From positions 1 to 41,958 of IMG/VR virus record IMGVR_UViG_3300042892_000618: 41,958 nucleotides of DNA. One strand, written 5' to 3'. The translations under genes were made by a program, and so were the position numbers. Origin of the DNA: a virus. The notes beneath the pieces are model-generated. The model saw only the letters and a program-made list of their open reading frames with translations. It ran no database searches and was not told the DNA's origin. This document shows positions 9,001-39,909 of this stretch, piece after piece; within the stretch, counting starts at the first letter, position 1; every line of letters starts with the position of its first letter.

Positions 9001-12000
9001 AATACACCTAGTTCTGGTGGTATTTATGTAATAGCTCCTACTACTAGTAGTAGTTTTACCTATACCGCATCGACATCTCCTGTAACTCGATACTTCTGGG
9101 TCAGAGCAGTAAATGATGACGGACAATCTTTATTAACAACTGTAGTAAGTGCAACCCCTACTGCACTGCCTTCAAATACAGTTCTACCAGGAATCTCCAC
9201 AGATACTGGAAACTATTCTGCTGGTTCGATAGTTACTGGAACAACTGGTACTTGGAGTAATGCTGCCTCATACTTAATTCAAATTGTTAGGTCGACTAGC
9301 ACCCCTATTACCTCAGATGTTACTACTTTAGTCTCAAATGTGTACACCATAACTGCTGCTGATGCCGCAGACCCGTCATTTTATTTTGCAGTAAAAGTCA
9401 CGGCATATTCTGGCGCTGGTCAGACTGGTGCTTCGGCTGTTGCATATTCAGCAACATCTCCTATATCTACTCTTGTTGCTACAGTAGGTACTCCAACAGT
9501 TGGTACTGCTACTAATTCTGGGTTTACTGTTACTTGGACATCAGGCCCTACTGGTTATCACATATCCAATATTAAGATATATAACTCATCTCAAACCCTA
9601 CTTACAACTATCTCTGATGTAACTAGTCCATATGTTTGGACAGGCGCCTCTGCAAACACCACTTACTATGTAAAAGTTCAAGTAGTAGCTGGCGATACCA
9701 GTGCTACTTCTGTAACATCTGGATTTAGCGCTTCTATAGCTACACTTCCTAATGCTCCTGTTAATACAGTTGCACCTACAATTACTCCTTCTACAGGTAA
9801 GGCGGGAGTAACAGAGTTTAGTGTTAACAGTAATGGCACGTGGAGTCCTGCTGATGCAGATGGTATTTATGAATACCAATGGCAGTATTACAGCGGTATT
9901 GCTCAAAATCTTTCATTTGCAACCTCTTCTACTTACACACCGCCACCTGACTATGTATCTTCATATGGCACTGATCTACGTTGTCGTGTTAGAGCAACTA
10001 ACGCGGGAGGGTCTACTTATGCATTTTCTAATGTAGTTACTGTAACCCCTTCTGCTAGCAACCTTGCTACATCTGATTCGACATTGACACCAGGAACACC
10101 TTCATCTATTACTGTTGCAAATACAGCAACTACTAATCAAGGACAAGTTTCGTGGACTAATGGTTCAAACGCAACATCTTCGTGGGTCTCATCTGTTACC
10201 CCTGGGTCTTCATTTACTGGTACAGACGGAGGATCGCTACTTACCTCTCAAGTATTTGATCTTACATCTTCAGCTACTGCTGTTGCTACTGTTAATAATA
10301 AAAACAACAACAAAACAGTGACAGTCTCTTGGGATCAGGCCAGCTCTGCTAGCTATAGCGTAAGTATTACAATAACAAACGCAGGTGCTGCAAATGGAAC
10401 TATTACAGCTATAGGTAACTCTACTGCTTCATCTGATAGCGTTTTAGTTACACTTGGAAACGTTTTTGGTACGGTTCGCGCTAATTCTGTGACGCTATAT
10501 TCTGGAGCAAATCAGACAGGCGTGTCTTCAACCTTTACTCCAGCCACAGCGCCCTCTACATCTCCTGTAAACAAAACAAGCAGCAACACAGGCAGCGGTA
10601 CAGTAAATGCTACTCCTGTAAATACAGCTACTCCAACAATTACTCCTAGCTCGGGTAGGGCGGGAACTACAACATACAGCGTCAACAGCAACGGTACATG
10701 GGATTACATCAACCTTAGTACCGTTTTTACATACCAATGGCAGAGTTTTGACCAAGGTTCAGTGTATGTAAACATAGCAGGGGAAACTAGTTCTTCTTAC
10801 TCACCACCATCTAACTTTTTCTCTAGCAAAATTAGTCCAATTCGTTGCCGTGTGACAGCAACTAATACAAATGGTCTTGCTGCTACCGCGACTTCTAATA
10901 CAGCCGCAGTTCTAGTACCAGCTGTCACTCCAACAGGAACTGTATCTGTAAGTGGGTCGTTAACATTAAATAGCGTACTGACATGCTCTGTTGCTGGCAT
11001 AACTAACGGCGTAAGTTATACATATCAGTGGTACTACGGCTATAGTAGTGGCGTTGTGAACTCGGTGCAAAGTGGAGCAACAAGCTCTACTCTTACTCTT
11101 TTATCAGCAGACATTCCTAATCAATATTTTAAGTGCGTAGTTGTAGCAACTAGTTCAACGGGAAATACTGCAACATTTACATCTAATATTGTTGGACCAA
11201 CATATAAGGCACCTGCGCAAGTTACAGGGGTTACCGCAACTGTCACATCTCTAAATAGACCATATAACAATGGAGAAATTGGAGTTTCATGGACTGCTCC
11301 TGCAGATAATGGTTCTGCAATTACTGGATATTTTATTGAATACTCTTCAAACGCAGGGTCTTCATGGAGCACCTTGTCATCAAACTATACGGGTGGTACG
11401 AGTTTTGGTAGCTCTCCTTGGGGAGTTGGGACATACATCTTTAGAGTTTCCGCAATTAACGCTGCAGGCACTGGAACCGCGTCCGCAAACAGCAATAACG
11501 CTGTAGTAACTACAGTTCCTCAGGCGCCTACTATTGGCACTGCAACTGCTGGCAATGGAACTGTGTCTGTGACATTTACTGCTGGCGCAACAGGAGGAAG
11601 TGCGATTACAGGATTTACAGTTACTTCATCTTCTGGTAATACTGGTACAGGAACATCGAGCCCTATATCCGTGAGCGACACTAACGGAACTGCTCGCACA
11701 TACACAGTTACAGCAACTAACGCAAATGGAACATCCGCTGCGTCTTCAGCATCTAATTCTGTAACACCTACTGTCCCTGTTGTTAGTGCCCCTTCAGGCG
11801 GAACGGTTTCAATATCAACAAACACGGGAAACTACACGGTTGGAAGCGTTATAACTTTTTCAACTACTGGTTGGTCTGGCTCACCGACAAGTTACAGTTT
11901 AAGACTTTACAACGGAACTAACCCAGTGCTAACTAGTGATCCTCTTAGAGGCTCTACAACTAGTACCTCTGCTACATACACTATTGCATCTGGAGACGTT

Positions 12001-12387
12001 CCAAACTACTTTAAGGCATTTGCAACTGCTACTAACTCTGGTGGAACTTCTACGGAAGCTGGCTCTACGCAAGTGGGACCTGCGGTTGCAGCAGCAGTCG
12101 CAGCACCAGTTTTAATATCAATAACTGGTAATAACTCCCTTACCCTTGGAGGAACATTTACTTGGAGTTTTACAAACTCTCCTACTGTGTACTCTATTCT
12201 TTGCACTGGTCCATCAGGAAGCGTTTATACGACAAGCAACGCGTTTACATACTCTGGAACAACGTTTAGACCTGGCTATGACGGCACTGGTTGGCAGGGT
12301 TCTGGTACTTACACTATGTACGTCACAGCAAGAAATGCTGCTGGTGGAACCTCCACAACCGCAAGCGTTTCGCAGTTTATGAGCTAG
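6043..12387 (+). CDS. Giant FN3/Ig-like multidomain tail protein (putative adhesin)
   Basis: The product is 2114 residues, the longest in the window. It opens with repeated W-K-x-V / V-R-V-G-x-x-W-K units (GSWKQVKDIYIRVGTAWK, WVRVGNLWKQV), a start found in other phage tail proteins and probably an attachment segment. The rest is a chain of beta-sandwich domains. A PKD-like domain lies near residues 440-510 (FLDFDDGTVD, then HQFESAGTYDVEVS). FN3-like domains recur (for example SWTAPNTDATHDAATSYLVY, VSWTAPADNGSAITGYFIEY). Ig-like repeats contain YQW and RCRV/KCVV strands, and a bacterial FN3-type domain covers about 1824-1907. No enzyme motif was seen. FN3 and Ig domains on phage tails commonly bind carbohydrate weakly at the host surface. 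There is no strong Shine-Dalgarno sequence; the ATG at 6043 is 27 bases after the previous stop. Confidence 0.72.
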   Translation: MPTYINSGSWKQVKDIYIRVGTAWKTVNSAWVRVGNLWKQVHSPVETPYPSGDITIRDYLDVNIIDNDVYLANVGDTIYGHRGPTWLNNPTAFQYRWRYATESGGPYQAFSPAETSTSHPSPLNTASPIARINEWDGRWIVYEVRAENALGYSEWFTSINEAHLVKYKPQNLTISITGTPGPSSTLTATNTWQTTFINSGDWTPSEYSYVWYDNDTEEIILETTHPTNTFTPAIEDLGRNVRVEVTAVNSGGSTTAVSAAVGPIEFVLAVDIPTVTQSNDSIVLDNRGGIINAVMAKVSTTIYGVTAYTSYRVRYRYRNVQTGVYLLDGATSTATASWETYTSNSSGVGGISSVVVDNVNNVATLHDLFFINEYYYDGSTYTAGSVTNGAKYQIEIQVSVVRTDNSTVSQTLIYGISAAPVATITTASTTVGTNNDLVFTGTVGGLAGKPAYPVEVFLDFDDGTVDTQLFSEGDRNPTYSITHQFESAGTYDVEVSTDPIYTSAIKSITVITAPGSFNIVSVVKGLSNGTTRPLTVTWGESVNATAYEVQIQKQESGLTGWVTIQTFADSNYTIAPTLTEVFNVAVAKYYQVSVRATRFTDLATAAYSGGGTLANPNYVEADGIPAGAPTSLSVSDIATTSATISFTAPTSFGSAGLYTYQWSLDNITWASSFSNTSPVYPYGLTAGTSTTVYVRALNLDDVGGTAASITFTTANPPGAFNITSAVKAAYSASLARSNAAGNSYPGNGGRAITINWSQSANATQYEVQVEGRNYHPIVNPSASLSWTMLRELDFAGYVNEPTRTEVFNAFNYYQYRVTARARVGGNIQSAAYSDGGSAAFPEYFTVTGTGPGKPTIGTITPSTTSASVAFTNPTSPGSAPFIFSQWSLDEANWNTVNTSPFTISDLNDNFSYAVYMRSLNYDGESSATPHAFKSFTTLVAKPPNTPTSPTTSSVTSTNITFSWTAPNTDATHDAATSYLVYTNSTGNTPSSGGIYVIAPTTSSSFTYTASTSPVTRYFWVRAVNDDGQSLLTTVVSATPTALPSNTVLPGISTDTGNYSAGSIVTGTTGTWSNAASYLIQIVRSTSTPITSDVTTLVSNVYTITAADAADPSFYFAVKVTAYSGAGQTGASAVAYSATSPISTLVATVGTPTVGTATNSGFTVTWTSGPTGYHISNIKIYNSSQTLLTTISDVTSPYVWTGASANTTYYVKVQVVAGDTSATSVTSGFSASIATLPNAPVNTVAPTITPSTGKAGVTEFSVNSNGTWSPADADGIYEYQWQYYSGIAQNLSFATSSTYTPPPDYVSSYGTDLRCRVRATNAGGSTYAFSNVVTVTPSASNLATSDSTLTPGTPSSITVANTATTNQGQVSWTNGSNATSSWVSSVTPGSSFTGTDGGSLLTSQVFDLTSSATAVATVNNKNNNKTVTVSWDQASSASYSVSITITNAGAANGTITAIGNSTASSDSVLVTLGNVFGTVRANSVTLYSGANQTGVSSTFTPATAPSTSPVNKTSSNTGSGTVNATPVNTATPTITPSSGRAGTTTYSVNSNGTWDYINLSTVFTYQWQSFDQGSVYVNIAGETSSSYSPPSNFFSSKISPIRCRVTATNTNGLAATATSNTAAVLVPAVTPTGTVSVSGSLTLNSVLTCSVAGITNGVSYTYQWYYGYSSGVVNSVQSGATSSTLTLLSADIPNQYFKCVVVATSSTGNTATFTSNIVGPTYKAPAQVTGVTATVTSLNRPYNNGEIGVSWTAPADNGSAITGYFIEYSSNAGSSWSTLSSNYTGGTSFGSSPWGVGTYIFRVSAINAAGTGTASANSNNAVVTTVPQAPTIGTATAGNGTVSVTFTAGATGGSAITGFTVTSSSGNTGTGTSSPISVSDTNGTARTYTVTATNANGTSAASSASNSVTPTVPVVSAPSGGTVSISTNTGNYTVGSVITFSTTGWSGSPTSYSLRLYNGTNPVLTSDPLRGSTTSTSATYTIASGDVPNYFKAFATATNSGGTSTEAGSTQVGPAVAAAVAAPVLISITGNNSLTLGGTFTWSFTNSPTVYSILCTGPSGSVYTTSNAFTYSGTTFRPGYDGTGWQGSGTYTMYVTARNAAGGTSTTASVSQFMS

Positions 12388-13893: not shown

Positions 13894-15714
13894 ATGACAA
13901 ACGGACTAGAAGGAATTCAAGTAACTCTTGTCGACTCGGTTGAGAAGGCTGGACAATTTATTTCTTGGTTGGGTGAGCGACGCCCTTATGATGCAATTGC
14001 TGTAGATATTGAAACAGGCGAACGTCTTGGTATGCCTAGAGACCATGCGCTCTCTCCTTGGCATGGAGATATACGACTTGTTCAAGTTGGTGATGGAATG
14101 CAAGGTTGGGCTATTCCATGGGCTGAATGGAGTGGTGTTTTCTATGAAGCAATGAGTAAATTTAATGGACCGCTTGTATGTCACAACATTGCATTTGAAG
14201 CACGCTGGTTTGCAGTTAAATCTAATTGGGAAATTCCGTGGGAACGTGCTCACGACACAATGATTATGGCTCACCTTATTGACCCTTTAGGTCCTGGAGG
14301 ATTAAAACCACTCTCTGCACGACTTGTTGATGGTCAAGCAGCGCATCTACAAGACAAACTTGATGTTGATTTAACTAAGAATGGTTGGACTTGGGGAACT
14401 GTTCCAACTAACTTTGAGCCTTACTGGTCTTATGGTGCCCTCGACACAATTCTTACGATGCGTCTTTGGGAAAAGTTTTACGAAAAGTGTGGGCCAGGTC
14501 AGCCTTATCACAAGGCGTATGAACTTGAAATGGCTGCACGAAAAATTGTTACTCGCATGGAAATCAATGGTGCTCGTGTAGACCTTGAATACTCGAAGCG
14601 TAAGTTTGATGAACTTATTCAATACACTGAGTCTGTAAAAGAGTGGGCTAAGAAAACATATTCTGGAACTAGTATTACAAGTAACATCCAGATTGTTCGT
14701 CTTTTTGAAAGTCTTGGAGCAGAGATTACAGATTTTACTCCTTCTGGTCAAAAATCTGCTGGAGCAGATCAACTTAAACTTTTATCTATCAACGGAAATG
14801 ACGAAGTTCGAATGCTTGCAGACACTATTCTCAAGCAGCGTAAGGCAGATAAATTAGCCAATACATACTTTAAAAACTTCCTTGATAAAAATGTTGATGG
14901 CATTTTGCACCCTTCTGTAAAGACTTTAGGTGCTCGCACATCTCGTATGTCTATTACTGACCCAGCCCTACAGACACTACCTAAGGGCGATGATGTTGTT
15001 CGTCGTGCGTTTATTCCTAAAGATAAAAACCATGTAATCATTACCTCTGACCTTGACCAAGTTGAGTTCCGTATGTTTGCATCTTTATCTAAAGACCCTA
15101 ACCTCATCACACTATTTAATCGTTCCGATGTAACTGGCTCTGACCCATTTACCGAAATTGGCCGCGAGGTTTATCAAGAACCTGAAATGACTCGCTCAGA
15201 TAAGCGACGTGGTCTCATCAAGGGGATGGTTTACGGACGACTCTATGGCGCTGGTGTGGCAAAGCAAGCACTTACAGCAGGAGTGTCAGAGGTTCAGATG
15301 AAATCTGTCTCTGATGCATTCGACCAGCGTTATCCTGGAATGATTAAGTTTCAGAAAGAGATTGAGCATATTGGTGCAATGCGTGAGCGTAATGAGGGTC
15401 AGGGCTACATTCATACATGGACTGGTCGCAAGATTCCTTGTGATGAAGGTCGTGTCTACACTCTTATTAATTATTTAATTCAGGGTGGCGCTGCCGAGGT
15501 CTTTAAGAGTAATCTTGTTAAGTTAGATCAAGCAGATTTAACTGAGCACCTAATTGTTCCTGTTCACGATGAAATTGTTCTTCAAGCACCTCGTAAAGAT
15601 GCAGAAGAGATTAAAAAGTTAGTTCAACAATGTATGACTACAACTGAAGGTTGGGATGTTCCACTCACTGCTGGAATTGATGGACCTCTAGAAACTTGGG
15701 GAGATAAGTACTAA
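13894..15714 (+). CDS. DNA polymerase, family A, with 3'-5' exonuclease domain
   Basis: The product is 606 residues. It replicates or repairs phage DNA. The N-terminal DnaQ-like exonuclease has D38-x-E40 (AVDIETGE), a second motif around CHNIAFEARWF (residues 96-106) and D184 in YGALDTILTMRLWE. The polymerase domain has motif A at D386 (SDLDQVEFRMFA), the O-helix motif B from about residue 436 (DKRRGLIKGMVYGRLYG) and motif C with D559-E560 (VPVHDEIVLQ). No 5'-3' flap nuclease domain is present, and the length matches the short phage type of Pol A. AAAGGA precedes the ATG. The stop overlaps the next start (TAATG), so the resolvase is translationally coupled. All key catalytic residues appear intact. 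Confidence 0.95.
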   Translation: MTNGLEGIQVTLVDSVEKAGQFISWLGERRPYDAIAVDIETGERLGMPRDHALSPWHGDIRLVQVGDGMQGWAIPWAEWSGVFYEAMSKFNGPLVCHNIAFEARWFAVKSNWEIPWERAHDTMIMAHLIDPLGPGGLKPLSARLVDGQAAHLQDKLDVDLTKNGWTWGTVPTNFEPYWSYGALDTILTMRLWEKFYEKCGPGQPYHKAYELEMAARKIVTRMEINGARVDLEYSKRKFDELIQYTESVKEWAKKTYSGTSITSNIQIVRLFESLGAEITDFTPSGQKSAGADQLKLLSINGNDEVRMLADTILKQRKADKLANTYFKNFLDKNVDGILHPSVKTLGARTSRMSITDPALQTLPKGDDVVRRAFIPKDKNHVIITSDLDQVEFRMFASLSKDPNLITLFNRSDVTGSDPFTEIGREVYQEPEMTRSDKRRGLIKGMVYGRLYGAGVAKQALTAGVSEVQMKSVSDAFDQRYPGMIKFQKEIEHIGAMRERNEGQGYIHTWTGRKIPCDEGRVYTLINYLIQGGAAEVFKSNLVKLDQADLTEHLIVPVHDEIVLQAPRKDAEEIKKLVQQCMTTTEGWDVPLTAGIDGPLETWGDKY

Positions 15715-16190
15715 TGAAATATGTTATTTCGGTAGACCCTGGAAAAGCCACAGGTGTTTGTCTTGTTAAGTGGTCAGGTGATCAAGATGAGACACCATCA
15801 GTAATGATGTCTGCAGAAGTACAAGCAGATGAGTTTGCTAAGTGGTTTGAAACAGCACTCTCTATCGCCCTATCTCTAGACTCAGTACAGAACATTTCTG
15901 TAGTCTGTGAGAGGTTCACTATTACTGCTCAGACTGTAAGAAACTCTCAAGCGCCATTTTCCTTGGAACAAATTGGAGTTTTAAAGCACTTATGTAGAGT
16001 CAATGAATTTGACCCTGAAAACATTGCTTTTCAGTCTCCAGTAGATGCAAAATCTATGTTTCCTAATCCTCAACTCAAGAAGGTTGGAACTTGGCATGTA
16101 GGGGGAGAAGGTCACGCAAATGATGCAATCCGACACGCCCTCTTAAGATTGGCTAAAACAGGCTGGCAACCAAGAATCCTGCTAAAATAG
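15714..16190 (+). CDS. RuvC-like Holliday junction resolvase
   Basis: The product is 158 residues with the RNase H-like nuclease pattern: VISVDPGKATGV with D8, E66 in VVCERF and H134-x-x-D137 in HANDAIRHALL. These are the acidic positions expected of RuvC-family enzymes, which cut four-way DNA junctions; in phages this resolves replication intermediates before packaging. It overlaps the polymerase stop by one base. Downstream is a strong hairpin and then the helicase gene. Confidence 0.85.
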   Translation: MKYVISVDPGKATGVCLVKWSGDQDETPSVMMSAEVQADEFAKWFETALSIALSLDSVQNISVVCERFTITAQTVRNSQAPFSLEQIGVLKHLCRVNEFDPENIAFQSPVDAKSMFPNPQLKKVGTWHVGGEGHANDAIRHALLRLAKTGWQPRILLK

Positions 16191-16267: not shown

Positions 16268-18067
16268 GTGGCTGTATCCGTAGACCTAGACGCACAAGGT
16301 GAGCACATCCTTATCAATGCTGACTGGCGCTTTAAAGAGCTCTGTAAGAGCCTTCCAGGGTCTTCCTGGAGCCCTTCTGAGCAGGTCTGGCGTGCTCCAT
16401 TGAGTTGGACAACCTGTCTTGCTCTACGGTCTACATTCCGCGACAGCCTTGAAATTGGTCCAGGACTAAGTGCTTGGGCAGCCAATGAAATTGCTGTTCG
16501 GATTAATCCAGCGAACGCTCTTAGAGAGTTAGAGACCTTTGATGGTGATGAGATTCTTTTTCCTCACCAGCGAGCAGGCGTAGAGTTTCTAGCAACTGCT
16601 AAGCGAGCACTTCTTGCTGATGAGCCAGGGCTTGGTAAAACTGCTCAGGCTATCCGTGCCCTAAAAAAACTTCATGAAGATGGGGAAGATGTTTTCCCTA
16701 TCCTTATCGTCTGCCCAAACACCTTGAAAAAGAACTGGGCTCGTGAGTTTACAAAGTGGTGGCCAGAACTTCCTACACAAATTATTCGAGGCTCTTCTCT
16801 ACAGCGCAAGCGTCAATTTGAAGAAGAGGCTCATGTTTTTATTATTAACTGGGAGTCTCTCAGAAGTCACTCACGTCTTGCTCCATATGGTTCTGTAGCA
16901 CTTACTCGCTGTAAGGCTTGCGGTGGTCAAGATGAAAAGGTCACAGAGACTCGTTGCGAGGTACATCTTCGTGAACTTAATGGAATTGATTTTAAGGCTG
17001 TAATTGCTGATGAAATTCACCGCTCTAAAGACCCTAAGTCAAAGCAAAGCCGTGCGCTCTGGTCGGCTAGTGGAGATGCAAAGATTCGTTTTGCTCTTAC
17101 TGGTACGCCAATTGCAAACAATGTTGTTGATCTTTGGGCAATCCTTCACTGGTTATCTCCAAAAGATTGGCCATCAAAGACAAAGTGGATTGACCGTATG
17201 GTAGATACGATGCTTAATGCTTTTGGCGGAATGATGGTTATCGGCATTAAACCGCAGATGCAAGATGAGTTTTATAAGAGTGTTAATCCATATATGCGTC
17301 GTATGCTCAAAAAAGTTGTACTTCCTTGGCTTCCACCAGTTATCAATGAACGCCGTGATGTCGAGATGTCAACAAAACAAAAGAAGGCTTACGAGCAGAT
17401 GCGTGACATGATGATTGCAGAACTTGCATCAGGTGACACACTTACCGCTCCTGGAATCCTTACACAGACTATCCGTCTTCTTCAGTTTGCAAGTTCTTAC
17501 GCGACAATGGTTGTTGACGAGAAGACTGGAGAGATGAGAGCAGTACTTGACTCGCCATCCTGCAAGGTTGATGCTTTGATGGATGATATTGAGAACGGCG
17601 ACTTTGGTGATGACTCTGTAGCAGTATCTGCTGTATCTAAGCAACTTATTAATCTTCTCAGTGCAGAACTTACAAAGAAAAGAATTCTTCACGGTCTTAT
17701 CACTGGTGATCAAGATGAAGATGAGCGACAGAAGGCTGTTGATGATTTTCAGTCAGGCAAGATTAAATGGATTCTCTTCACCGCGCAGGCGGGTGGAGTT
17801 GGTATTACCTTGACTGCTGCACGACGATTGATTATGCTTCAACGACCTTGGTCACTAGTTGACCATCGACAAGTTCTTGACCGTGTTCACCGTATCGGCT
17901 CAGAAATCCACGATTCAATTGTGATTACTGATTATGTTACAGAGGGAACAATTGAAGAACGAGTTATTCAAGTATTAGAAACAAAATCAGATAACTTTGA
18001 ACAAATTGTTCGTGACAAGGAACAACTGCTCAAACTTCTAGCAGAAGATAAGGCGGGGAAACTATGA
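16268..18067 (+). CDS. SNF2-family (superfamily 2) DNA helicase/translocase
   Basis: The product is 599 residues from a GTG start, with GAGGAG five bases before it. A short N-terminal module (WSPSEQVWRAPLSW) resembles the HARP-like element of SMARCAL1-type proteins. Motifs in order: Walker A with K124 (DEPGLGKTAQ), DEIH at 248-251, ALTGTPIANN near 277, and motifs V/VI (AQAGGVGITLTAARR, DRVHRIGSEI near 538). Between motifs Ia and II is a probable zinc-binding insert: C215-x2-C218-x11-C230-x2-H233. SNF2-type phage helicases are thought to remodel forks or branched DNA. The last four bases overlap the start of the nuclease gene (ATGA), indicating coupled translation and probable joint action. 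Confidence 0.92.
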   Translation: MAVSVDLDAQGEHILINADWRFKELCKSLPGSSWSPSEQVWRAPLSWTTCLALRSTFRDSLEIGPGLSAWAANEIAVRINPANALRELETFDGDEILFPHQRAGVEFLATAKRALLADEPGLGKTAQAIRALKKLHEDGEDVFPILIVCPNTLKKNWAREFTKWWPELPTQIIRGSSLQRKRQFEEEAHVFIINWESLRSHSRLAPYGSVALTRCKACGGQDEKVTETRCEVHLRELNGIDFKAVIADEIHRSKDPKSKQSRALWSASGDAKIRFALTGTPIANNVVDLWAILHWLSPKDWPSKTKWIDRMVDTMLNAFGGMMVIGIKPQMQDEFYKSVNPYMRRMLKKVVLPWLPPVINERRDVEMSTKQKKAYEQMRDMMIAELASGDTLTAPGILTQTIRLLQFASSYATMVVDEKTGEMRAVLDSPSCKVDALMDDIENGDFGDDSVAVSAVSKQLINLLSAELTKKRILHGLITGDQDEDERQKAVDDFQSGKIKWILFTAQAGGVGITLTAARRLIMLQRPWSLVDHRQVLDRVHRIGSEIHDSIVITDYVTEGTIEERVIQVLETKSDNFEQIVRDKEQLLKLLAEDKAGKL

Positions 18068-18990
18068 GTGGAGTCATAAGACTATCTAACTCTGAACTAC
18101 AAACATTTAAGGACTGTCGTCGTAGGTGGTGGCTAAGTTACTACCGTCGTTTAAAACCACGCAGTCAAGATATGACTGGCGCTCTTGCGTTCGGTACACG
18201 AATTCACGCAGCACTTGATGCTCACTATGCTCATGGTGTCCCTCTTCTTAAAGCACACTCTGACCTTGTTGAAACTGACAAGTCCCTTCTACTGCAAGAC
18301 TTTAGAGATATTGGAACCCTAGAGACCGAAGCAGAAATGGGTCGCATCATGCTTGAAGGTTATGAGCAATGGGTTGCTGAAGAAGGTATTGACGCAGAAC
18401 TAGAAATGATATCTACAGAAGAAACAATCATTGCTCCACTCTTTGGAGGAGAAGTTGAACTTCAAGGTAAGTTAGATATGCGTGTTCGTCGCAAGGCTGA
18501 CGGAGTTCGTATGTTCCGTGACTTTAAAACTGTTGGTGGGTCACTCTCTGAGTTCTCGAGTATGGCTCATATGAATGAGCAGGTTATGACCTACATGCTA
18601 CTTGAATCAACAAAGGTTGACGAGAGTGAGCGAAGTGATGGTGGAATCTTTACTCTTCTTAAAAAAGTTCGTCGTACTGCAGCTGCTAAACCACCTTTTT
18701 ATGAGCATGTAGAAGTTCGACACAATGTTTTTACAATGCGTTCTTTCTGGGAGAGAATTCACGGAACAATTTCTGATTTGATGCGGGTTCGCACTGCGCT
18801 TGATTCTGGACAGAATCCTGCGTACTATGCGTATCCTAAAGCAAGTCGTGATTGCAAATGGAAATGTTCATTTTTTGCTATCTGCCCAATGTTCGATGAC
18901 GGAAGCGCCGTAGAACAAGCAATTAGCGAAATGTATGAGGAGTCAGACCCTTATGCATATTACGAAACCGACAAAAAAGGAAGTGAGTGA
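18064..18990 (+). CDS. PD-(D/E)XK nuclease with Fe-S cysteines (Cas4/RecB-like)
   Basis: The product is 308 residues. The N-terminus has ELQTFKDCRRRWWLSYYRR, typical of RecB/AddB/Cas4-type nucleases. GTRIHAALDAHY carries the conserved His. Catalytic residues are D138 (GKLDMRV) and D153-x-K155 (FRDFKTVGG), followed by a QVMTYML motif. Cysteines C18, C264, C268 and C274 (CKWKCSFFAIC) match the four-Cys iron-sulfur pattern of this group. The enzyme would process DNA ends, probably making 3' single strands for the recombinase encoded next. It overlaps both neighbours by four bases. Confidence 0.9.
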   Translation: MSGVIRLSNSELQTFKDCRRRWWLSYYRRLKPRSQDMTGALAFGTRIHAALDAHYAHGVPLLKAHSDLVETDKSLLLQDFRDIGTLETEAEMGRIMLEGYEQWVAEEGIDAELEMISTEETIIAPLFGGEVELQGKLDMRVRRKADGVRMFRDFKTVGGSLSEFSSMAHMNEQVMTYMLLESTKVDESERSDGGIFTLLKKVRRTAAAKPPFYEHVEVRHNVFTMRSFWERIHGTISDLMRVRTALDSGQNPAYYAYPKASRDCKWKCSFFAICPMFDDGSAVEQAISEMYEESDPYAYYETDKKGSE

Positions 18991-19775
18991 CAATGAGCGA
19001 AATTCAACGCTCCTTAACCGTTATGGTTTACGGTGAGTCAAAAGTTGGTAAGTCAACTTTTGCAGTAACCGCACCATATCCACGTCTAATGCTCGATGTT
19101 GAGGGTGGACACCGCTTCCTCCCAATCGTCGTTAAGTACTGGGACCCTTTGCGAGAAGAACCACCAATCGCAGATGGAACTTGGGATACTTGCGTAGTTA
19201 CAGTTCGTGACTATGACACAGTTATTAAAACATATCAATGGTTACAACTTGGACGCCATCATTTTAAGAGTCTAATCATTGACTCTATTTCAGAACTTCA
19301 AGTTAAGTGTATGGACTCAATTGCTGGTAGCGAACAGATGAAGATGCAACAGTGGGGCGAATTGCTTCGTCACATGGGCGGTCTTCTTCGTGATATTCGT
19401 GACCTCACCATGCACCCCACTAATCCACTAGAAGCAGTAGTGCTTACAGCAATGGCTAGAACAAGCCAAGATGGTCGTAACAAACCTTATCTACAAGGAC
19501 AGTTAGCGATTCAAGCACCATACTTTTATGACATTCTCGGCGCAATAAACGTCGAACAGATGCCAAGCATGGACCCTATGCAATCTCCACATCGAGTACG
19601 ACGTATGTATGTTGAACGTACAGATAAGTACGAAGCAGGAGAACGCGTTCAAGGTCGTCTTGGCGCAATCGTAGAACAAGAGAATTTGTCTATTGACCGA
19701 ATGCTCGACATGATTTTCGGTCCAAGACAAGTAGCAACAGATACAACTACAACAACGAAAGAGGTAACGCAGTGA
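18987..19775 (+). CDS. RecA-fold ATPase, Sak4-like recombinase
   Basis: The product is 262 residues. I use the GTG at 18987, which overlaps the previous stop as GTGA in the style of the neighbouring genes; an in-frame ATG at 18993 is the alternative. Walker A is YGESKVGKST with K22, and a Walker B strand SLIIDSISEL contains D99. The size, single RecA-like core and place between an exonuclease and an ssDNA-binding candidate match Sak4-type single-strand annealing/recombination proteins. Such proteins pair homologous strands during phage recombination. A related AAA-ATPase role in replication cannot be excluded. Confidence 0.8.
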   Translation: MTMSEIQRSLTVMVYGESKVGKSTFAVTAPYPRLMLDVEGGHRFLPIVVKYWDPLREEPPIADGTWDTCVVTVRDYDTVIKTYQWLQLGRHHFKSLIIDSISELQVKCMDSIAGSEQMKMQQWGELLRHMGGLLRDIRDLTMHPTNPLEAVVLTAMARTSQDGRNKPYLQGQLAIQAPYFYDILGAINVEQMPSMDPMQSPHRVRRMYVERTDKYEAGERVQGRLGAIVEQENLSIDRMLDMIFGPRQVATDTTTTTKEVTQ

Positions 19776-32436: not shown

Positions 32437-33048
32437 TTACCCCTTAATTCCGTATAGTGCAAAAGAAGTGTATTGTTGAAGATTAGTTCCGCCGTCTAAA
32501 GACTCAAAAGAAATTGATGATATTGCCGTAGTGCTATTTATGAGTTGTGATGAAAAAAATATATTTCCAGAACCGTTTATGTCTGCACCTGTTAATGACC
32601 TGATAGTTTTGTTTTTATTAGTGTTTGCATAATCTAAAACATCAATAATGCCAACGCCAAAAGTATTGCCAGCAGTGCTTCCTGTTGCTGCTAAAGCAAA
32701 CTCACCTATTGCTGGCACATAACTGTTAGCAGCAGTGCCAGAGCCATCACCGTACAGGTTATGGCCTCTTGCACCATAACTGCCATTAAATCTCATAACC
32801 ATTTGACCAGCAAGATTTTGCACTCTACCTGATTTTGCTAAATATCTTACTTGTAAATGAGAATAAGTCTGCGGAATTGAACTAATCGTGATGCTAGATA
32901 GTCCGCCGCTAGGAACAATCACCGCAGTGATAGGTTCATATCCGCTAGCGTCATAAGGGTTCCAAACTGTATTACCTGCAAGCACGCCTACATAGCGAGT
33001 CAGTGATTTAACACCGCCCGCGCTAGATAGTTTTGCTACATAGGCCAT
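32437..33048 (-). CDS. Fibre-array protein sharing the adhesin N-terminal domain
   Basis: The product is 203 residues. After MAYVAKLSSAGGVKSLTRYV and a short leader comes the same beta domain seen in the next two genes: ITISSIPQTYSHLQVRYLAK at the start and TSFALYGIKG at the end. It lacks the Gly-rich half. It may be a stand-alone structural or head-fibre-like subunit. The start overlaps the stop of the upstream 101-residue gene (TAATG). Confidence 0.6.
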   Translation of the reverse strand: MAYVAKLSSAGGVKSLTRYVGVLAGNTVWNPYDASGYEPITAVIVPSGGLSSITISSIPQTYSHLQVRYLAKSGRVQNLAGQMVMRFNGSYGARGHNLYGDGSGTAANSYVPAIGEFALAATGSTAGNTFGVGIIDVLDYANTNKNKTIRSLTGADINGSGNIFFSSQLINSTTAISSISFESLDGGTNLQQYTSFALYGIKG

Positions 33049-33353
33049 TAGGAAATCTCCACCCCTGAGATGTGAAAGTTAATTGTAGTAGCGGACGCGC
33101 CGCCTTTAATTGTTTTGGTTGTTGTTAGTACTTGCTTGAGCGGGATAACAGTTGAGTCATAGGCACCAACAGTCACTGTTGTTGCAATTGAGACATCATC
33201 TAGAGCCATAGTAAAACTTCCAGAAGCTCCTGCAGTATTAACCACCATAATTTCAGTCACGACTGTTGTTGTAGAAGACGGCACTGTATAAAGTGTTGTT
33301 GATGTAGTGGTTGTTGCTGCTCCGCGAAACAGAGCCTTAGTTAGAGTAGCCAT
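33048..33353 (-). CDS. 100-residue beta-bead protein, copy B
   Basis: The product is 101 residues (MATLTKALFRGAATTTTSTT, LYTVPSSTTTVVTEIMVVN, INFHISGVEIS). A paralogue at 34270-34572 shares start, end and about half of the residues. The two also share 33 identical bases across the start codon (33334-33366 and 34553-34585). The all-beta, Thr/Ala-rich content suggests a small structural bead in the virion. Function unknown. Confidence 0.62.
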   Translation of the reverse strand: MATLTKALFRGAATTTTSTTLYTVPSSTTTVVTEIMVVNTAGASGSFTMALDDVSIATTVTVGAYDSTVIPLKQVLTTTKTIKGGASATTINFHISGVEIS

Positions 33354-33359
33354 TAGTTA

Positions 33360-33461
33360 CTACTTTCTATTAGGGTGAGATATTGTTTTTCTCACGGTTG
33401 GGGTTAAATCAGTAGCAGATAGTGCTATTAAAGCATTTGCTAAATCACGGGCTTTAGTCAT
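33360..33461 (-). CDS. 33-residue minigene with fibre-type KARDLAN motif
   Basis: The frame runs from the ATG at 33461 to the TAG at 33362-33360 and encodes MTKARDLANALIALSATDLT plus 13 more residues ending in HPNRK. Its ATG overlaps the stop of the upstream 61-residue gene by four bases (ATGA), so translation is probably coupled. KARDLAN(A/L) is a motif often seen inside aquatic phage tail fibres, so this may be either a tiny accessory gene or a leftover of a fibre. Confidence 0.45.
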   Translation of the reverse strand: MTKARDLANALIALSATDLTPTVRKTISHPNRK

Positions 33462-33658: not shown

Positions 33659-34270
33659 TTAGTAATACAATAGAACACAGCCGCCACCGCCTGCGCCACC
33701 AGAAGCACCAGCAGGCCCAGAAGTTCCATTGCCGCCACCACCGCCGCCGCCAGAACCGCCCGCGCCAGCAACAAGTGTGCTTACTTTATTTCCACCGTTA
33801 GCAAGAAGTCCCGCGCCACCGCCGCCTGAAGTATAAGTTCCGCCAGCAGTACCGCCAGTTCGACCAAAATTACTATCTCCACCAGCAGCAGCCTGACCAT
33901 CGTAATAAGAACCAGCGCCACCATCACCAATAAAACCAGTATTAGTGCTAGTTTGAGGAGACTTTAATTGTCCATAACTACTCAAGCCACCAAGCCCCAC
34001 AGAAGGTGTGCCACCAGCGCCTACAACTACTACGTTTGCTGCAGTAGTCCAACCAGCAATATAACCACCAGCAACACGCCCACTACTTGAATATTGACCG
34101 CTACCAGTATTAGTCCAGCCAGCCTGACCACCACTGACTACGATAGCCCAAACGTGTGTTATACCAGCAGGAATTGTTACTGCTCCAGAACTGGTTAATG
34201 TTTGCTGTAAAGCTAAATCTTTAGGCCCAACAATTCCGCTGCTTGGCGCAGGAAATACTGATATACCCAT
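33659..34270 (-). CDS. Short Gly-rich adhesin
   Basis: The product is 203 residues. The start MGISVFPAPSSGIVGPKDLA is followed by a beta segment (TSSGAVTIPAGITHVWAIVV) like the start of other phage Gly-rich tips. Then come VVVGAGG and long Gly-rich runs, ending GGCVLLYY, equivalent to the IIRY endings of the longer adhesins. It corresponds to a stand-alone Gly-rich tip domain. The start overlaps the stop of the bead protein upstream (TAATG). Confidence 0.65.
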   Translation of the reverse strand: MGISVFPAPSSGIVGPKDLALQQTLTSSGAVTIPAGITHVWAIVVSGGQAGWTNTGSGQYSSSGRVAGGYIAGWTTAANVVVVGAGGTPSVGLGGLSSYGQLKSPQTSTNTGFIGDGGAGSYYDGQAAAGGDSNFGRTGGTAGGTYTSGGGGAGLLANGGNKVSTLVAGAGGSGGGGGGGNGTSGPAGASGGAGGGGCVLLYY

Positions 34271-34572
34271 TAGGAAATCTCCACTCCGCTAATGTGAAAT
34301 GACACTGTCACGGCGCTAGCAAAACCAGCAATAATTTTTGTAGTTGCAAGTACCTGTTTTAAGTCAAACATTGCTGTTGAGTTAGCAGCAAGAGCAACTG
34401 TCTTAAAGAAGTCCACGCCGTCAAGTGTAATTGTAAACGTTGCGGCTGTTGCTGCAGAGTTAGTTACCACAATGTTAGTTATTACCGTAGTTGTAGACGC
34501 AGGCACAGTGTAAAGCGTTGCGGAAGACGTTGCTGCCGCTGTACGAGCCAGCGCCTTAGTTAGAGTAGCCAT
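34270..34572 (-). CDS. 100-residue beta-bead protein, copy A
   Basis: The product is 100 residues (MATLTKALARTAAATSSATL, LYTVPASTTTVITNIVV, SFHISGVEIS). It is a paralogue of the protein at 33048-33353, including the bases around the start and the final GTGGAGATTTCCTAATGG that forms a stop-start overlap with the next gene. Each copy is followed by a different adhesin gene, as expected from cassette duplication. Confidence 0.62.
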   Translation of the reverse strand: MATLTKALARTAAATSSATLYTVPASTTTVITNIVVTNSAATAATFTITLDGVDFFKTVALAANSTAMFDLKQVLATTKIIAGFASAVTVSFHISGVEIS

Positions 34573-34590
34573 TAGTTACTACTTTTCATG

Positions 34591-36615
34591 TTAGTAGGCT
34601 CCCATGATTGTCATGGTTATGTCTGCGTTGTTTGCTGTGTCAATGGTTCCCCAAGATGAAGTACTTCCATCATTTGTAAGGTACTTACCAGTAGTAGGTA
34701 CGCCTGGAGATTGAATTAATGCGTCGGAGGAGAAAGTTACACTTGAGTTTGTTCCAGAAACGTAAGTTAGTTCTTCCCATGTAATAAATCCACCTGCTTG
34801 GTTTACACATGCTTCTGTAACAACGTATTCAGCGTACCTAGGCTCCATGAAATCTGAACTTGCAAAAAATACAGTTGAACCAACAGGATAAGCCGCATTT
34901 ATTGCATCCGCGTCTCCGCTAGTTGAGGAGCCATCGAAGAGGATTTCTACAGCAGCACTAGCACCATTGGTTAAGTAAATTGCATCTAGTGGGACAGACA
35001 ACGAGTTTATTAAAGCAGTATTTGTTACTGGCGGCGCTGTTGAAGTAACAGCAGGCACAGAATTAACTGCGTTCCAATTAGCATCTGTTCCATTATTTGT
35101 AAGGTATCTATTTGTAGTTGGTGGATTTGATGTTCTAATTACGGTACTAGAAATGAAAAAACCATTCATAGTTAATGCTGTTCCAGAAACGTAAGTTAAG
35201 TTTGGCCAATTTAGCAATGGGCCACCATCATATACGCATGCTTCTGTAACAAGTAGCACAACGTAGTCAACAGAAGGGGTTGCCGACTCTGCAAAAACTA
35301 TAGTTGAACCAACAGGATAGGCAGCATTTATTGCGTCGTTATCTCCGCTAGTTGGGCTACTATCAAAATAAAGTTGCGCATATCCTTTAGATTCTCCGTA
35401 TACAGTAACCTCTGTTAATGCGCTAGAGAATGACCCCATTAAAGCAGTGTTTGTTGCAACCACCGCTGTTGAAGAAGGGGCAGGATAGAGAGTTTCCCAA
35501 GAAGAAACAGTTCCATCGTTTGTAAGATACTTACCAGTGGTGAGTTCATACGCTGTTCTAAATCTATTGCCAAGGAAAAATCCGCTATTTTGACCAGAAA
35601 CGTAAGTTAAATTATCCCACAAAACATTGCTACCACTAAGGGTGGCTGCTTCCGTAACTGTTAACTTAACTAAACCTACTTCTATATCTTCGTCGTTTGA
35701 AATAATAAAAGTTGAACCAACAGGATAGGCGGCATTAACTGCTGCATCCGCGCCAGCAGCGTTCTCAACGTTGATTGATAACGCTACGCTACCTGGGTCT
35801 GTACCATTAGATAGGTTTATATAATTTATGGCTAACGCGTTGTTTAAGGCAGTGTTTGTCACTGCTTCTGCAGCAGAAACATCAGGAAGTTGATTAGTTA
35901 CTACGCCTTGTGCTCCTTGAATACCTTGAGCTCCAGTAGTTCCTTGGGTTCCAGTTGTTCCCTGTGTACCAGTTGTACCCTGAGTTCCTGTTTCACCCTG
36001 TGCACCTGTTGTGCCCTGGCTACCTGTTGTACCTTGTGAACCTGTGTTACCAGTGGTTCCCTGTGCGCCAGTCTCACCAGTTGTACCTTGGCTACCTGTG
36101 TTACCAGTTGTACCTTGGCTACCTGTAGAACCTGTGGTTCCCTGTGTACCAGTTGTACCCTGAGTTCCTGTAGTTCCTTGAGGTCCAGTCTCAGCGGTGG
36201 CTGTAGTATCAAGCCATAAAATTCCTTGAGTAGCGGGTGCTGAAGCACCAGAAACTATTCCCTGAGTACCAAGTAATCCTTGAATTCCTTGTACACCTTG
36301 TGTACCTGTAGTTCCCTGTGAGCCAGTAGTACCTTGTAATGAAATATTATTATCAGTAATGTAACTTCCTACACGCTCATTCGTGTAGTAAAGATTTTGT
36401 GCACCCTCTGTTAAATCATCTGTCGAAGCAAGTGCTGAACCAGCAATTGCATCTGAAACATCCTGCGCGGATGTACCAGCATCTGCCCATACAGTTCCCG
36501 TATATATACGGATTTTGTTACTTGTAGTGTTGTAATAGGTCTGACCAGCAGATGTGCCCGCAGGGTCGCTTGATAGAGAAACGAGTCCTATCGGTACGAG
36601 AAACTTACGGGCCAT
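34591..36615 (-). CDS. Collagen-like tail fibre with triplicated domain
   Basis: The product is 674 residues, AGGAG before its ATG. The N-terminus (MARKFLVPIGLVSLSSDPAG) resembles the next upstream fibre. SAQDVSDAIAGSALASTDDL and NLYYTNERVGSYI follow, then collagen-like GXY (DNA 35903-36330). The C-terminal 430 residues hold three copies of a 130-residue domain with VTNTAL, NAAYPVGST and LTYVSG. The first two copies end KYLTNDG/RYLTNNG, the last KYLTNDGSTSSWGTI. Probably a trimeric fibre shaft with three stacked tip or knob domains. Confidence 0.75.
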   Translation of the reverse strand: MARKFLVPIGLVSLSSDPAGTSAGQTYYNTTSNKIRIYTGTVWADAGTSAQDVSDAIAGSALASTDDLTEGAQNLYYTNERVGSYITDNNISLQGTTGSQGTTGTQGVQGIQGLLGTQGIVSGASAPATQGILWLDTTATAETGPQGTTGTQGTTGTQGTTGSTGSQGTTGNTGSQGTTGETGAQGTTGNTGSQGTTGSQGTTGAQGETGTQGTTGTQGTTGTQGTTGAQGIQGAQGVVTNQLPDVSAAEAVTNTALNNALAINYINLSNGTDPGSVALSINVENAAGADAAVNAAYPVGSTFIISNDEDIEVGLVKLTVTEAATLSGSNVLWDNLTYVSGQNSGFFLGNRFRTAYELTTGKYLTNDGTVSSWETLYPAPSSTAVVATNTALMGSFSSALTEVTVYGESKGYAQLYFDSSPTSGDNDAINAAYPVGSTIVFAESATPSVDYVVLLVTEACVYDGGPLLNWPNLTYVSGTALTMNGFFISSTVIRTSNPPTTNRYLTNNGTDANWNAVNSVPAVTSTAPPVTNTALINSLSVPLDAIYLTNGASAAVEILFDGSSTSGDADAINAAYPVGSTVFFASSDFMEPRYAEYVVTEACVNQAGGFITWEELTYVSGTNSSVTFSSDALIQSPGVPTTGKYLTNDGSTSSWGTIDTANNADITMTIMGAY
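35999..36177 (-). repeat. 179-bp tract identical to 37709-37887 in the adjacent fibre gene
   Basis: Reading both stretches base by base (constant offset 1710) gave complete identity over 179 bases; mismatches begin at both edges (35998 and 36178). Both code for the same run of GTTG/GSQG/GAQG collagen triplets. Identity at third codon positions implies recent recombination or gene conversion, not selection on protein. Confidence 0.85.
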
Positions 36616-36642
36616 CTGTGGTCAGCTCCTAATTACTTTTTA

Positions 36643-38754
36643 TTACGCTGTGATTACTACACGTAGGTTGTTACTGTTTGCAGGGGCAACTGCTACTGCG
36701 ATAGTAACTGTAGGTACTGTAGAGACACTTGCTGATGTTACATCAGTCTCTACAACATTCCCTGAAGTATCGTAAACAGTTACGATAACATCATTTGTAC
36801 CTAGACCGTGAGTTACGGCCCAAGAAGTTGTTGAACCGTCTGCAGTTAGAGTAGCAGCGTATCGCTTTACTAATCCTGCTGCTGTTCCGTAAGCATCGAA
36901 TGTATTCGTTGCTACAGCGAGTGTTCCACTTGTTACAGTGAACTCTGCTGAGACTGCAGTGATGTACTGACCTGTATCAGAGAACTGAGTCCAAGTAATA
37001 GTATCTGTGTCTAGTGTACCAGCGGCGGTTACAACAAAGCCCTTACCAGCAGATGTTCCTGCCTCAACGAAGGTGAAAGCACCTTTAGTAAGTTCTGCTG
37101 ATGTATTTGCATCTTCTGCACGAGTTGGTGCACCTGAAACATTAACAACATAAATACCGTTTTCAGAGCCAGTTGCCTGGTTCTTAATAAGGACTCTATC
37201 GTTAGTAGCAAGTGTTACTCCATCTACAACATCGCCATTTTCAAACGATGATGCAAGGGTTCCAGATGTTGCGGTTGCTACACGAACAGATTGCTTAACA
37301 TCAAGACCTTGTGCTGTCGCATCTACATATGCCTTTGTAGCAATAACTGTTGTATCAACAGCAATCTTGCCGACATCTCCACCTGAACCAGAGATTGTAA
37401 GACCAGTACCTGGGTTAGCAACTAGGTTAGAACCTGAAAGGCCAAGACCTGCGCCGTAGTTAAGACCAAGAACTGTGTCAGTTACTGCAAGAGGCCCTGC
37501 TACTGAAAGAATTCCAGCGTTGTTACCTGTTGCACCAGTTGTACCTTGCGCACCGACTGTGCCTTGTGTACCAGTTGTACCCTGAGTACCTGTAGTTCCC
37601 TGTGTACCAGTTGTACCTTGAGTACCAGTTTCACCTTGAGCACCTGTATCGCCTGTTGTGCCCTGGCTACCTGTTGTACCTTGTGAACCAGTTGTACCAA
37701 CAGTTCCTTGTGCACCTGTTGTGCCCTGGCTACCTGTTGTACCTTGTGAACCTGTGTTACCAGTGGTTCCCTGTGCGCCAGTCTCACCAGTTGTACCTTG
37801 GCTACCTGTGTTACCAGTTGTACCTTGGCTACCTGTAGAACCTGTGGTTCCCTGTGTACCAGTTGTACCCTGAGTTCCTGTAGTTCCCTGTGTACCAGTT
37901 GCGCCCTGCGCACCTGTGTCACCAGTTGTGCCTTGTGTACCAGTTGTACCTTGTACACCAGTAGCACCATCGAGGTTGATTGACCATACAGCGTATGTTC
38001 CTGAACCTCTAACGTCATTGACGTTTACAACGAGTGTGTTAGTTCCTGCTGTGTAGCTGACTACAGTTGCAGACATGTTGTTATTTACATCGTAAGCAAC
38101 TACTACGTCTTGACCTACTGAGTAGGAAAGAGCAGCATCAGCAAGTACAAAACTTACGTTGTTTGCTACCGCAATTGCGCGAGAAGTTGTAGAGGTTGTC
38201 TTATAGGTATCAGAGTGACCTTCAGTACCTTGAGCACCTGTGTCACCAGTTGTGCCCTGCGCTCCAGTTGTTCCCTGTGCGCCAGTCTCACCAGTTGTAC
38301 CTTGTGAACCTGTATTACCAGTCGTGCCCTGTGAGCCTGTTGAGCCAGTTGTACCTTGGCTACCTGTAGAACCTGTGGTTCCCTGTGAGCCAGTAGTACC
38401 TGTTGTACCCTGTGAACCTGTGTCACCAGTTGTGCCTTGAGCACCATTTGAACCAGCTTCACCAGTAGTACCTTGAGTTCCTGTTGTACCTTGAGAACCA
38501 GTTGTACCAGTTGTGCCCTGTGAGCCAGTAGTACCTGTTGTACCCTGTGAACCTGTGTCACCAGTTGTGCCTTGAGCACCTTGGGATGTGTTAATCCATG
38601 CTGTGCCGTTCCATGAACGAAGGTATCCAAGTACTGTGTCAAAATAAATTTGACCAACGGTTGGTGTCCCAGGTGCGCTTGATAAGTTTTGAATGACTGC
38701 ATTTTGCAGTTCTAACTTATTTAAATCAATATTGGTAAGAAATTTTCTTGCCAT
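36643..38754 (-). CDS. Collagen-like tail fibre
   Basis: The product is 703 residues, AAGGAGAT before its ATG. It starts MARKFLTNIDLNKLELQNAV, then has a small domain containing GTPTVGQIYFDT and RSWNGTAWINT. Two collagen-like GXY regions (DNA 38230-38590 and 37520-37970) flank a 65-residue beta domain (TSTTSRAIAVANNVSFVLAD). The C-terminal 260 residues hold a domain recognisable from many aquatic phage fibres: ATKAYVDATAQGLDVKQSVR, NDRVLIKNQATGSENGIYVV, GAFTFVEAGT, ending in TSWAVTHGLGTNDVIVTVYD. Likely a trimeric receptor-binding fibre. Confidence 0.78.
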   Translation of the reverse strand: MARKFLTNIDLNKLELQNAVIQNLSSAPGTPTVGQIYFDTVLGYLRSWNGTAWINTSQGAQGTTGDTGSQGTTGTTGSQGTTGTTGSQGTTGTQGTTGEAGSNGAQGTTGDTGSQGTTGTTGSQGTTGSTGSQGTTGSTGSQGTTGNTGSQGTTGETGAQGTTGAQGTTGDTGAQGTEGHSDTYKTTSTTSRAIAVANNVSFVLADAALSYSVGQDVVVAYDVNNNMSATVVSYTAGTNTLVVNVNDVRGSGTYAVWSINLDGATGVQGTTGTQGTTGDTGAQGATGTQGTTGTQGTTGTQGTTGSTGSQGTTGNTGSQGTTGETGAQGTTGNTGSQGTTGSQGTTGAQGTVGTTGSQGTTGSQGTTGDTGAQGETGTQGTTGTQGTTGTQGTTGTQGTVGAQGTTGATGNNAGILSVAGPLAVTDTVLGLNYGAGLGLSGSNLVANPGTGLTISGSGGDVGKIAVDTTVIATKAYVDATAQGLDVKQSVRVATATSGTLASSFENGDVVDGVTLATNDRVLIKNQATGSENGIYVVNVSGAPTRAEDANTSAELTKGAFTFVEAGTSAGKGFVVTAAGTLDTDTITWTQFSDTGQYITAVSAEFTVTSGTLAVATNTFDAYGTAAGLVKRYAATLTADGSTTSWAVTHGLGTNDVIVTVYDTSGNVVETDVTSASVSTVPTVTIAVAVAPANSNNLRVVITA
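37709..37887 (-). repeat. Second copy of the 179-bp shared collagen tract
   Basis: Identical to 35999-36177; see that entry. It lies inside the downstream collagen region of the 703-residue fibre. Confidence 0.85.
38381..38580 (-). repeat. 65-bp exact direct repeat within a fibre gene
   Basis: The 65 bases at 38381-38445 recur exactly at 38516-38580 (offset 135, which is 45 codons or 15 GXY triplets). They code for a stretch of Gly-Ala-Gln/Gly-Thr-Thr triplets. The in-frame spacing would let unequal crossing over lengthen or shorten the shaft without disrupting the triplet pattern. Confidence 0.8.
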
Positions 38755-38766
38755 TTTTCTATCTCC

Positions 38767-39903
38767 TTATGATAAGTAGGCTTTGCCTGATATGGGTGTT
38801 GAGAAGGTAAGCACTAAGGAGTTAACCGTTAGGTAAGAAATTTCTCCTTCGTAAATAGTACCACCTGAGTCTTGCACCACAACGTTCGGGTAAAACCCTA
38901 AGTTGTGTGTTATTTCCCAGGTAGTACCTGGCGTTGTTTTTGTATATTCATAACTCACTCTTTGCTTAGTGAAGTATAAATTAGTAGAGCCTTCTGATAA
39001 ATCATCAGTAGTCCCTAGAGCTGATGCTGCAATTGCATCAGACACTTCTTGGGCGGATACTCCCGCACCTGCTGCTCCCTGTACACCTTGTGTTCCAGTT
39101 GTACCTTGCGCTCCTTGAACACCACCAGCACCCTGAGTACCTGTTGCTCCTTGAACACCTGTGCCAGTTGTACCCTGTGAACCTGTTGAACCTTGGATAC
39201 CAGTTGCGCCTTGCGTACCAGTAGTACCTTGAACACCTGTGCCTGTTGCGCCAGTCGCACCTTGAACACCACCAGCACCCTGAACACCTGTTGCACCCTG
39301 AGTACCTGTTGCTCCTTGAACACCAGCACCTGTTGTACCTTGAGCTCCTGTCGCACCTTGAACACCTGTTGAACCTTGGATACCAGTTGCACCTTGTGTG
39401 CCTGCGCCAGTCGCACCTTGAACACCACCAGCACCCTGAACACCTGTGGTACCTTGAGGACCTTGAACACCTTGCGGACCATTAGCAGGACCTTGTGGAC
39501 CCTGAACACCTTGCGAACCTTGAGGTCCGATATATCCCTTTGTAGTTTGTCCTGCTGCTGCTCTTTGAGCTACCTGATCAATAGAGGTAATGTCTACATC
39601 ACTTAAATTTCCTGTAGGAAGGTAGAAATCAAAACTATAAGATTTTCCACCGCTTATACGAACCCTTGCCGTGTAATACCAACCAAATGGCGATAATCTT
39701 CTATTATCAGTTGTCGGTAAATCAACTGTAAAAGAACCTGTACTATCAAAAGTAAGAAGAATGGGTGCTGAAAGCACAGTTGCATTTTGTTCATCTTGTA
39801 TAGTACTTGATGGAGAAAAAGTGACAGATCCAGACGCTGCGGAACCTGCAGTTAAAAATTGACCAAAGACCGTTCTCACTACTACATCTGATGAATAACT
39901 CAT
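38767..39903 (-). CDS. Collagen-like tail fibre, first of the array
   Basis: The product is 378 residues. The ATG at 39903 is used because TTGGAG lies five bases upstream; a GTG at 39909 is an alternative. The N-terminal 115 residues form a beta domain ([20 protein letters not shown], then [20 protein letters not shown]). The collagen part is unusual in using mainly GVQGATG / GAQGTTG. The C-terminal part has [29 protein letters not shown] and [18 protein letters not shown], a tip frequent in aquatic phage fibres. It may attach the array to the virion or be an independent short fibre. Confidence 0.75.
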
Positions 39904-39909
39904 TGGCAC

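Follow-up and report, generated by a model that had tools for sequence, protein, structure and literature searches.

An identical tract of 179 bp in two adjacent collagen-like phage genes points to a recent copying event between their shafts

How do two neighbouring phage genes, different over most of their length, come to contain the same 179 bp without a single mismatch? The pair lies in one metagenomic virus record of 41,958 bases (IMGVR_UViG_3300042892_000618), analysed here in full and called the window; the base-for-base identity rests on the assembly of this record. Positions 35999–36177 and 37709–37887 are identical at 179/179 bp and cannot be extended on either side. In an exact-repeat scan of the whole window, they form the longest repeat, the runner-up being 65 bp. 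An earlier inspection of the letters alone (below, the sequence-only reading) had described this identity and the difference of the surrounding genes. Both descriptions are confirmed: the tract is maximal and in frame in both genes, and the DNA around it is only 40–51% identical.

The locus contains three collagen-like genes, all on the minus strand: f1 (38767–39909, 380 aa), f2 (36643–38754, 703 aa), and f3 (34591–36615, 674 aa). All three belong to the phage collagen-like fibre proteins, with PF01391 well over the cut-off (Pfam Collagen, 2.1e-41 for f2 and 2.5e-17 for f3) and a long Gly-X-Y repeat between non-collagen ends. The protein f1 has Pfam and PHROG matches, and its N-terminus is 45% identical to a collagen-like protein of phage DSL-LC01. 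The protein f2, a putative fibre or decoration protein, matches PHROG families of both tail fibre and head decoration proteins. Genes f2 and f3 are in tandem, with a common start (MARKFL). The collagen shaft of f2, delimited by its GXX runs, has a block A (38212–38580) and a block B (37519–37968) that contains the tract; a 65-bp exact repeat (38381–38445 = 38516–38580, minus strand) was also found inside this shaft by the exact-repeat scan. In f3, the tract is within the main shaft block (35899–36186). In the coding orientation, it covers nucleotides 868–1046 of f2 and 439–617 of f3, in frame 0 in each, and its translation gives 59 residues in the collagen-coding portion of both proteins.

Chance does not explain the identity. 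With the collagen codon usage of f2 and f3 themselves, the probability of the same codons given the same amino acids is about 10^-19. The longest shared stretch reaches at most 38 bp when codons are redrawn, at most 39 bp when the GXX (9-nt) units of the shafts are shuffled, and at most 56 bp with 18-nt units (up to 59 bp over repeat runs). Besides the tract, the two genes have other exact matches of 35–43 bp. Just beyond the tract, the ungapped identity falls to 40–47% on the N-terminal side and 43–51% on the C-terminal side, below the median of the collagen background (57%). Since the flanks drop at once to such values, the tract is a discrete block.

Genes f1 and f2 recur, in unchanged order, as orthologues in the nearest relative (L009/L095, IMGVR 3300033571_020317). 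Between the two f2 genes, the DNA identity is 95% in the head, 95% in the middle, and 91% in the C-terminal domain, and 75% and 77% in the two shaft blocks. Where the amino acid is unchanged, fourfold sites diverge by 0.10 outside the collagen part and by 0.50 inside, a comparison that depends on the repeat alignment, as misaligned units inflate divergence. The value of 0.50 is close to the one calculated for glycine codons drawn at random with their measured usage. In the remaining non-identical pairs measured, collagen sites were always more diverged than non-collagen sites. Shafts turn over faster than head and tip, and the excess is in the collagen DNA. Against this background, the f2 tract is 100% identical to its paralogue f3 and 74% identical to the aligned f2 orthologue of L009. 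All 155 of its 24-mers are common to f2 and f3, and only 7/155 are present in the f2 of L009. A closer similarity to the paralogue than to the orthologue (100% vs. 74%), with abrupt borders to flanks of 40–51%, is the pattern by which gene conversion is recognized. Given the 8.1% divergence outside collagen, zero differences in 179 bp have a probability of 2.7e-7; thus, the copy is younger than the greater part of the split from L009, and the divergence since copying is at most 1.7% (95% upper bound).

The place behind f2 is itself variable. The product of f3 is a mosaic with, in order, a head (36511–36615), a module resembling 38950–39057 of f1 (36364–36471, 66% DNA identity), the collagen shaft, and a C-terminal end of three tandem copies of a ~135-aa domain (34630–35868). 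No relative was found with the whole of f3, in IMG/VR or in phage records (tblastn). The C-terminal domain as lone query leads to L130, where a single copy occurs, and the head domain leads to relatives in related loci. The three copies are 37–45% identical among themselves, and the copy of L130 is in a non-collagen protein; there is no match for this domain in the PDB. In L009, the f2 gene is followed by a stand-alone gene of 70 aa, starting MARKFLVPIGLV, and a different collagen gene is also present in the f3 slot. The first 105 nt of that small gene are 89% identical to the head of f3, with a near-identical spacer; beyond them, the identity is 37%. Because the slot in L009 holds a small head gene and a different collagen gene, it has been altered since the split. 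To judge from these alignments, the f3 slot has clearly changed, with the 179-bp block as the most recent piece that can be seen in it. In L034, L064, L067, L011, and L069, the gene in this slot encodes a longer protein fused to an f3-type head. At 8951–9163 of L009, and at the equivalent place behind f2 in several relatives, the head domain is a small stand-alone gene (59–99 aa). These small genes frequently end with a DGG motif and overlap or abut the next gene.

Is such exchange found elsewhere? We surveyed 54 non-redundant loci, each with two or more collagen ORFs, taking the maximum of 100 shuffles as the null. An exact match between genes exceeds that maximum in 10 of the 54, mostly with 32–50 bp, and matches of this size could be of old origin. 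The only other tract above 50 bp is in L043, with 102 bp between adjacent collagen genes (5758–5859 and 6627–6728); the null maximum there is 39 in the survey and 49 in a separate run. The slot-B gene of L043 has a shaft and a C-terminal end like gene A of its own genome (60% identical). In L028, a relative of L043, only the N-terminal part and the shaft of slot B are in common with slot B of L043. On these comparisons, exchange between neighbouring fibre genes seems recurrent, yet rare at the present length. Over longer times, as L043 indicates, ends may be exchanged across the shaft.

We consider that the tract was probably left by a single recent event of non-reciprocal copying between adjacent shafts, most likely from f2 to f3. 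The sequence-only reading had proposed very recent recombination or ongoing gene conversion between the two genes. Recent exchange is well supported, by an identity far over the null, by the abrupt borders, by the greater similarity to the paralogue than to the orthologue, and by the case of L043; that conversion is still ongoing is conjecture. Gene f2 is favoured as donor, as the best match of the tract elsewhere (74%) is in an f2 orthologue, that of L009; the copy in f3 is then the probable recipient. Tract 18-mers are also present in the remainder of f2 (80 in 640 bp) and of f3 (18 in 190 bp), counts about proportional to shaft length and not decisive for the direction. No sister genome with f3 as it was before the exchange was found by an f3 search of IMG/VR or by DNA scans with the f2–f3 junction and the f3 head, these scans returning the L009 contig only.

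Two other readings would remove the copying event or change its nature. The record is a contig of an uncultured virus, and its assembly could have collapsed or smoothed two similar shafts onto one path, or misjoined f2 and f3 via a shared repeat. A repeat of 179 bp is longer than the usual assembly k-mers, so that its resolution needs paired or long reads. Nevertheless, f2 and f3 are both intact and in frame across the tract, and the layout of f2 on both sides of the tract, as well as the f2–f3 junction, agrees with L009. A crossing at a direct repeat would delete the intervening DNA, not duplicate it. Nor are the contig ends of related loci enriched in collagen (17 seen vs. 14.7 expected), for which reason the idea that assemblies break in collagen and hide longer repeats was also dropped. 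We regard an assembly effect as unlikely, with a chance large enough to be kept in mind. More improbable still is that an entire fibre gene was recently duplicated and then received another head and tip, the tract being the last part not yet replaced. The tandem arrangement with the common MARKFL start would fit this, as would the slot-B gene of L043 with its shaft and C-terminal type of gene A. But the f3 head matches the small L009 gene of the same slot (89% over 105 nt), so the slot already existed before, and beside the tract, the f3 shaft lacks the likeness to f2 that a recent divergence would leave.

The copies might also be held identical by a constraint on the DNA itself (an RNA structure, an overlapping gene, or a regulatory element), and plus-strand ORFs, called mechanically, do overlap the tract. 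The comparison with L009 contradicts this: the identity of the orthologous shaft is only 74%, half of its fourfold sites are changed, and a constraint fails to explain why the f2 tract is 100% identical to f3 and so different from its own orthologue. The Rfam scan gave no match, nor did a tRNA scan. This explanation was rejected and hardly deserves any credence.

For the favoured reading, copying from f2 to f3, the process would be gene conversion or a strand switch during replication or recombination. The near-repetitive collagen DNA would supply short perfect matches in register for pairing, and, with G-X-Y repeats in both shafts, the copied block would keep the frame. The direction, and any benefit, are presumptive. 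Candidate agents are encoded on the plus strand of the window. A Sak4-like single-strand DNA annealing protein or RecA-like recombinase (18987–19775; phrog_124, 2.5e-30) is 80% identical to the RecA-like recombinase of DSL-LC01 and is adjoined by an exonuclease (18064–18990; phrog_1218, 1e-38). A RuvC-like resolvase homologue (15714–16190) is 48% identical to a DSL-LC01 protein annotated as such, and a probable SSB is also encoded. The phage's own Sak4-like protein, with the exonuclease, SSB, and resolvase, could have made the exchange. Rad52-like recombinases of phages act on short and diverged sequences; for Red-beta, the shortest pairing length is ~23–27 bp (PMC3945230). That source does not mention Sak4; if the length is extended to it, the additional matches of 35–43 bp between f2 and f3 would presumably be long enough to start pairing. 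It is also conceivable, though doubtful, that f2 is a permanent store of shaft DNA from which the phage recombinase makes repeated copies into the variable neighbour slot, thereby fitting new heads and tips with working shafts, as an intragenomic diversification system.

The helicases of the window and of the Actinomycetia phage DSL-LC01 (OQ999401; 129 kb, Dishui Lake) are 76% identical; the genome of DSL-LC01 is itself a metagenome assembly (PMC10611076). Both have the gene order polymerase, resolvase, helicase, exonuclease, and RecA-like protein, and in both a minus-strand block of collagen genes is beside a calcineurin-like phosphoesterase. From this helicase identity, gene order, and collagen block, the window is most plausibly part of a larger genome of freshwater actinophage type, with a presumptive host. 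The two differ in that the longest mutual exact match among the collagen genes of DSL-LC01 is just 32 bp. Between the tail and replication genes, the window has a plus-strand ORF of 2114 aa (6043–12387), for which neither PHROG nor a tblastn search of phage records gave a match.

What the proteins do is a separate question. The C-terminal domain of f2 (36646–37374) matches a solved capsid decoration protein (PDB 9nx3_A) over residues 34–240 of 242, ~207 residues, with E = 2.4e-18; the match comes from a profile of 12 sequences and was missed by a single-sequence search. By this profile evidence, the domain and the capsid decoration protein are homologues. Among the phage proteins that match it, some are annotated as head decoration and others as tail fibre, and the matches to PHROG tail fibre families lie mainly within the collagen part. 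For these genes, "tail fibre" is an annotation. AlphaFold models of the two C-terminal domains had low confidence (mean pLDDT 57 and 64) and gave no fold match at E < 0.001. The sequence-only reading saw in the tract a means of combining different receptor tips with a shared shaft, which predicts contigs where the tract joins the tip of the other gene. Exact scans of IMG/VR showed no such contig and no match to tract pieces of 53 bp and 43 bp. With f2 ending in a decoration protein homologue and other proteins of this type called tail fibre, the idea of receptor-tip exchange is not supported in the form proposed. The converted patch moves shaft, not tips.

Change in collagen DNA is known from other systems. 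In Streptococcus thermophilus phages (Desiere 1998 and Duplessis and Moineau 2001, cited in PMC7242381 and PMC5601072), collagen-like repeats are suggested recombination hotspots (Desiere 1998, cited in PMC7242381), and they separate the domains of the antireceptors (PMC5601072). As here, a repeat in a phage fibre is the suggested site, with variable domains beside it. In those citations, the exchange is between phages, or a deletion within one gene, whereas the window has a block common to two neighbouring genes; and those repeats are in antireceptor genes, whereas host range is no part of the evidence for the present pair, which consists of sequence. The Ca. Planktophila phages E7 and F5 are also freshwater actinophages, with a highly variable island of 5 kb that includes two collagen-like proteins and a portion of the tail fibre gene, but they are different, smaller phages (39 kb), and an identical tract within one genome is not reported in the accessible sections of that paper (PMC10202952). 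In the Guarani virophage, an 81-nt deletion in a collagen-like gene accompanies a host change, likewise a repeat-mediated change in collagen DNA, although within a single gene and in a virophage (PMC7242381). The collagen side-tail-fibre proteins of E. coli prophages share the modular order of head, collagen, and tip, and their collagen parts vary in length by multiples of three; their heads and tips are others, and no identical tract between neighbouring genes is described in the portion of the source at hand (PMC3368898). Within the open-licence literature, the present case adds a well-resolved example, within one genome, to a kind already known. If real, it documents a clear and datable transfer of shaft DNA between two fibre genes of one phage genome, and shafts that turn over much faster than end domains would help to explain the variable fibre clusters of abundant freshwater actinophages. 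Shaft similarity is then an unreliable marker of descent for fibre genes as a whole.

Near f3, a 33-bp exact repeat (33334–33366 and 34553–34585) lies over the starts of two genes of ~100 aa (33048–33353 and 34270–34572), each followed by a gene of ~200 aa, suggesting a tandem duplication of a gene pair.
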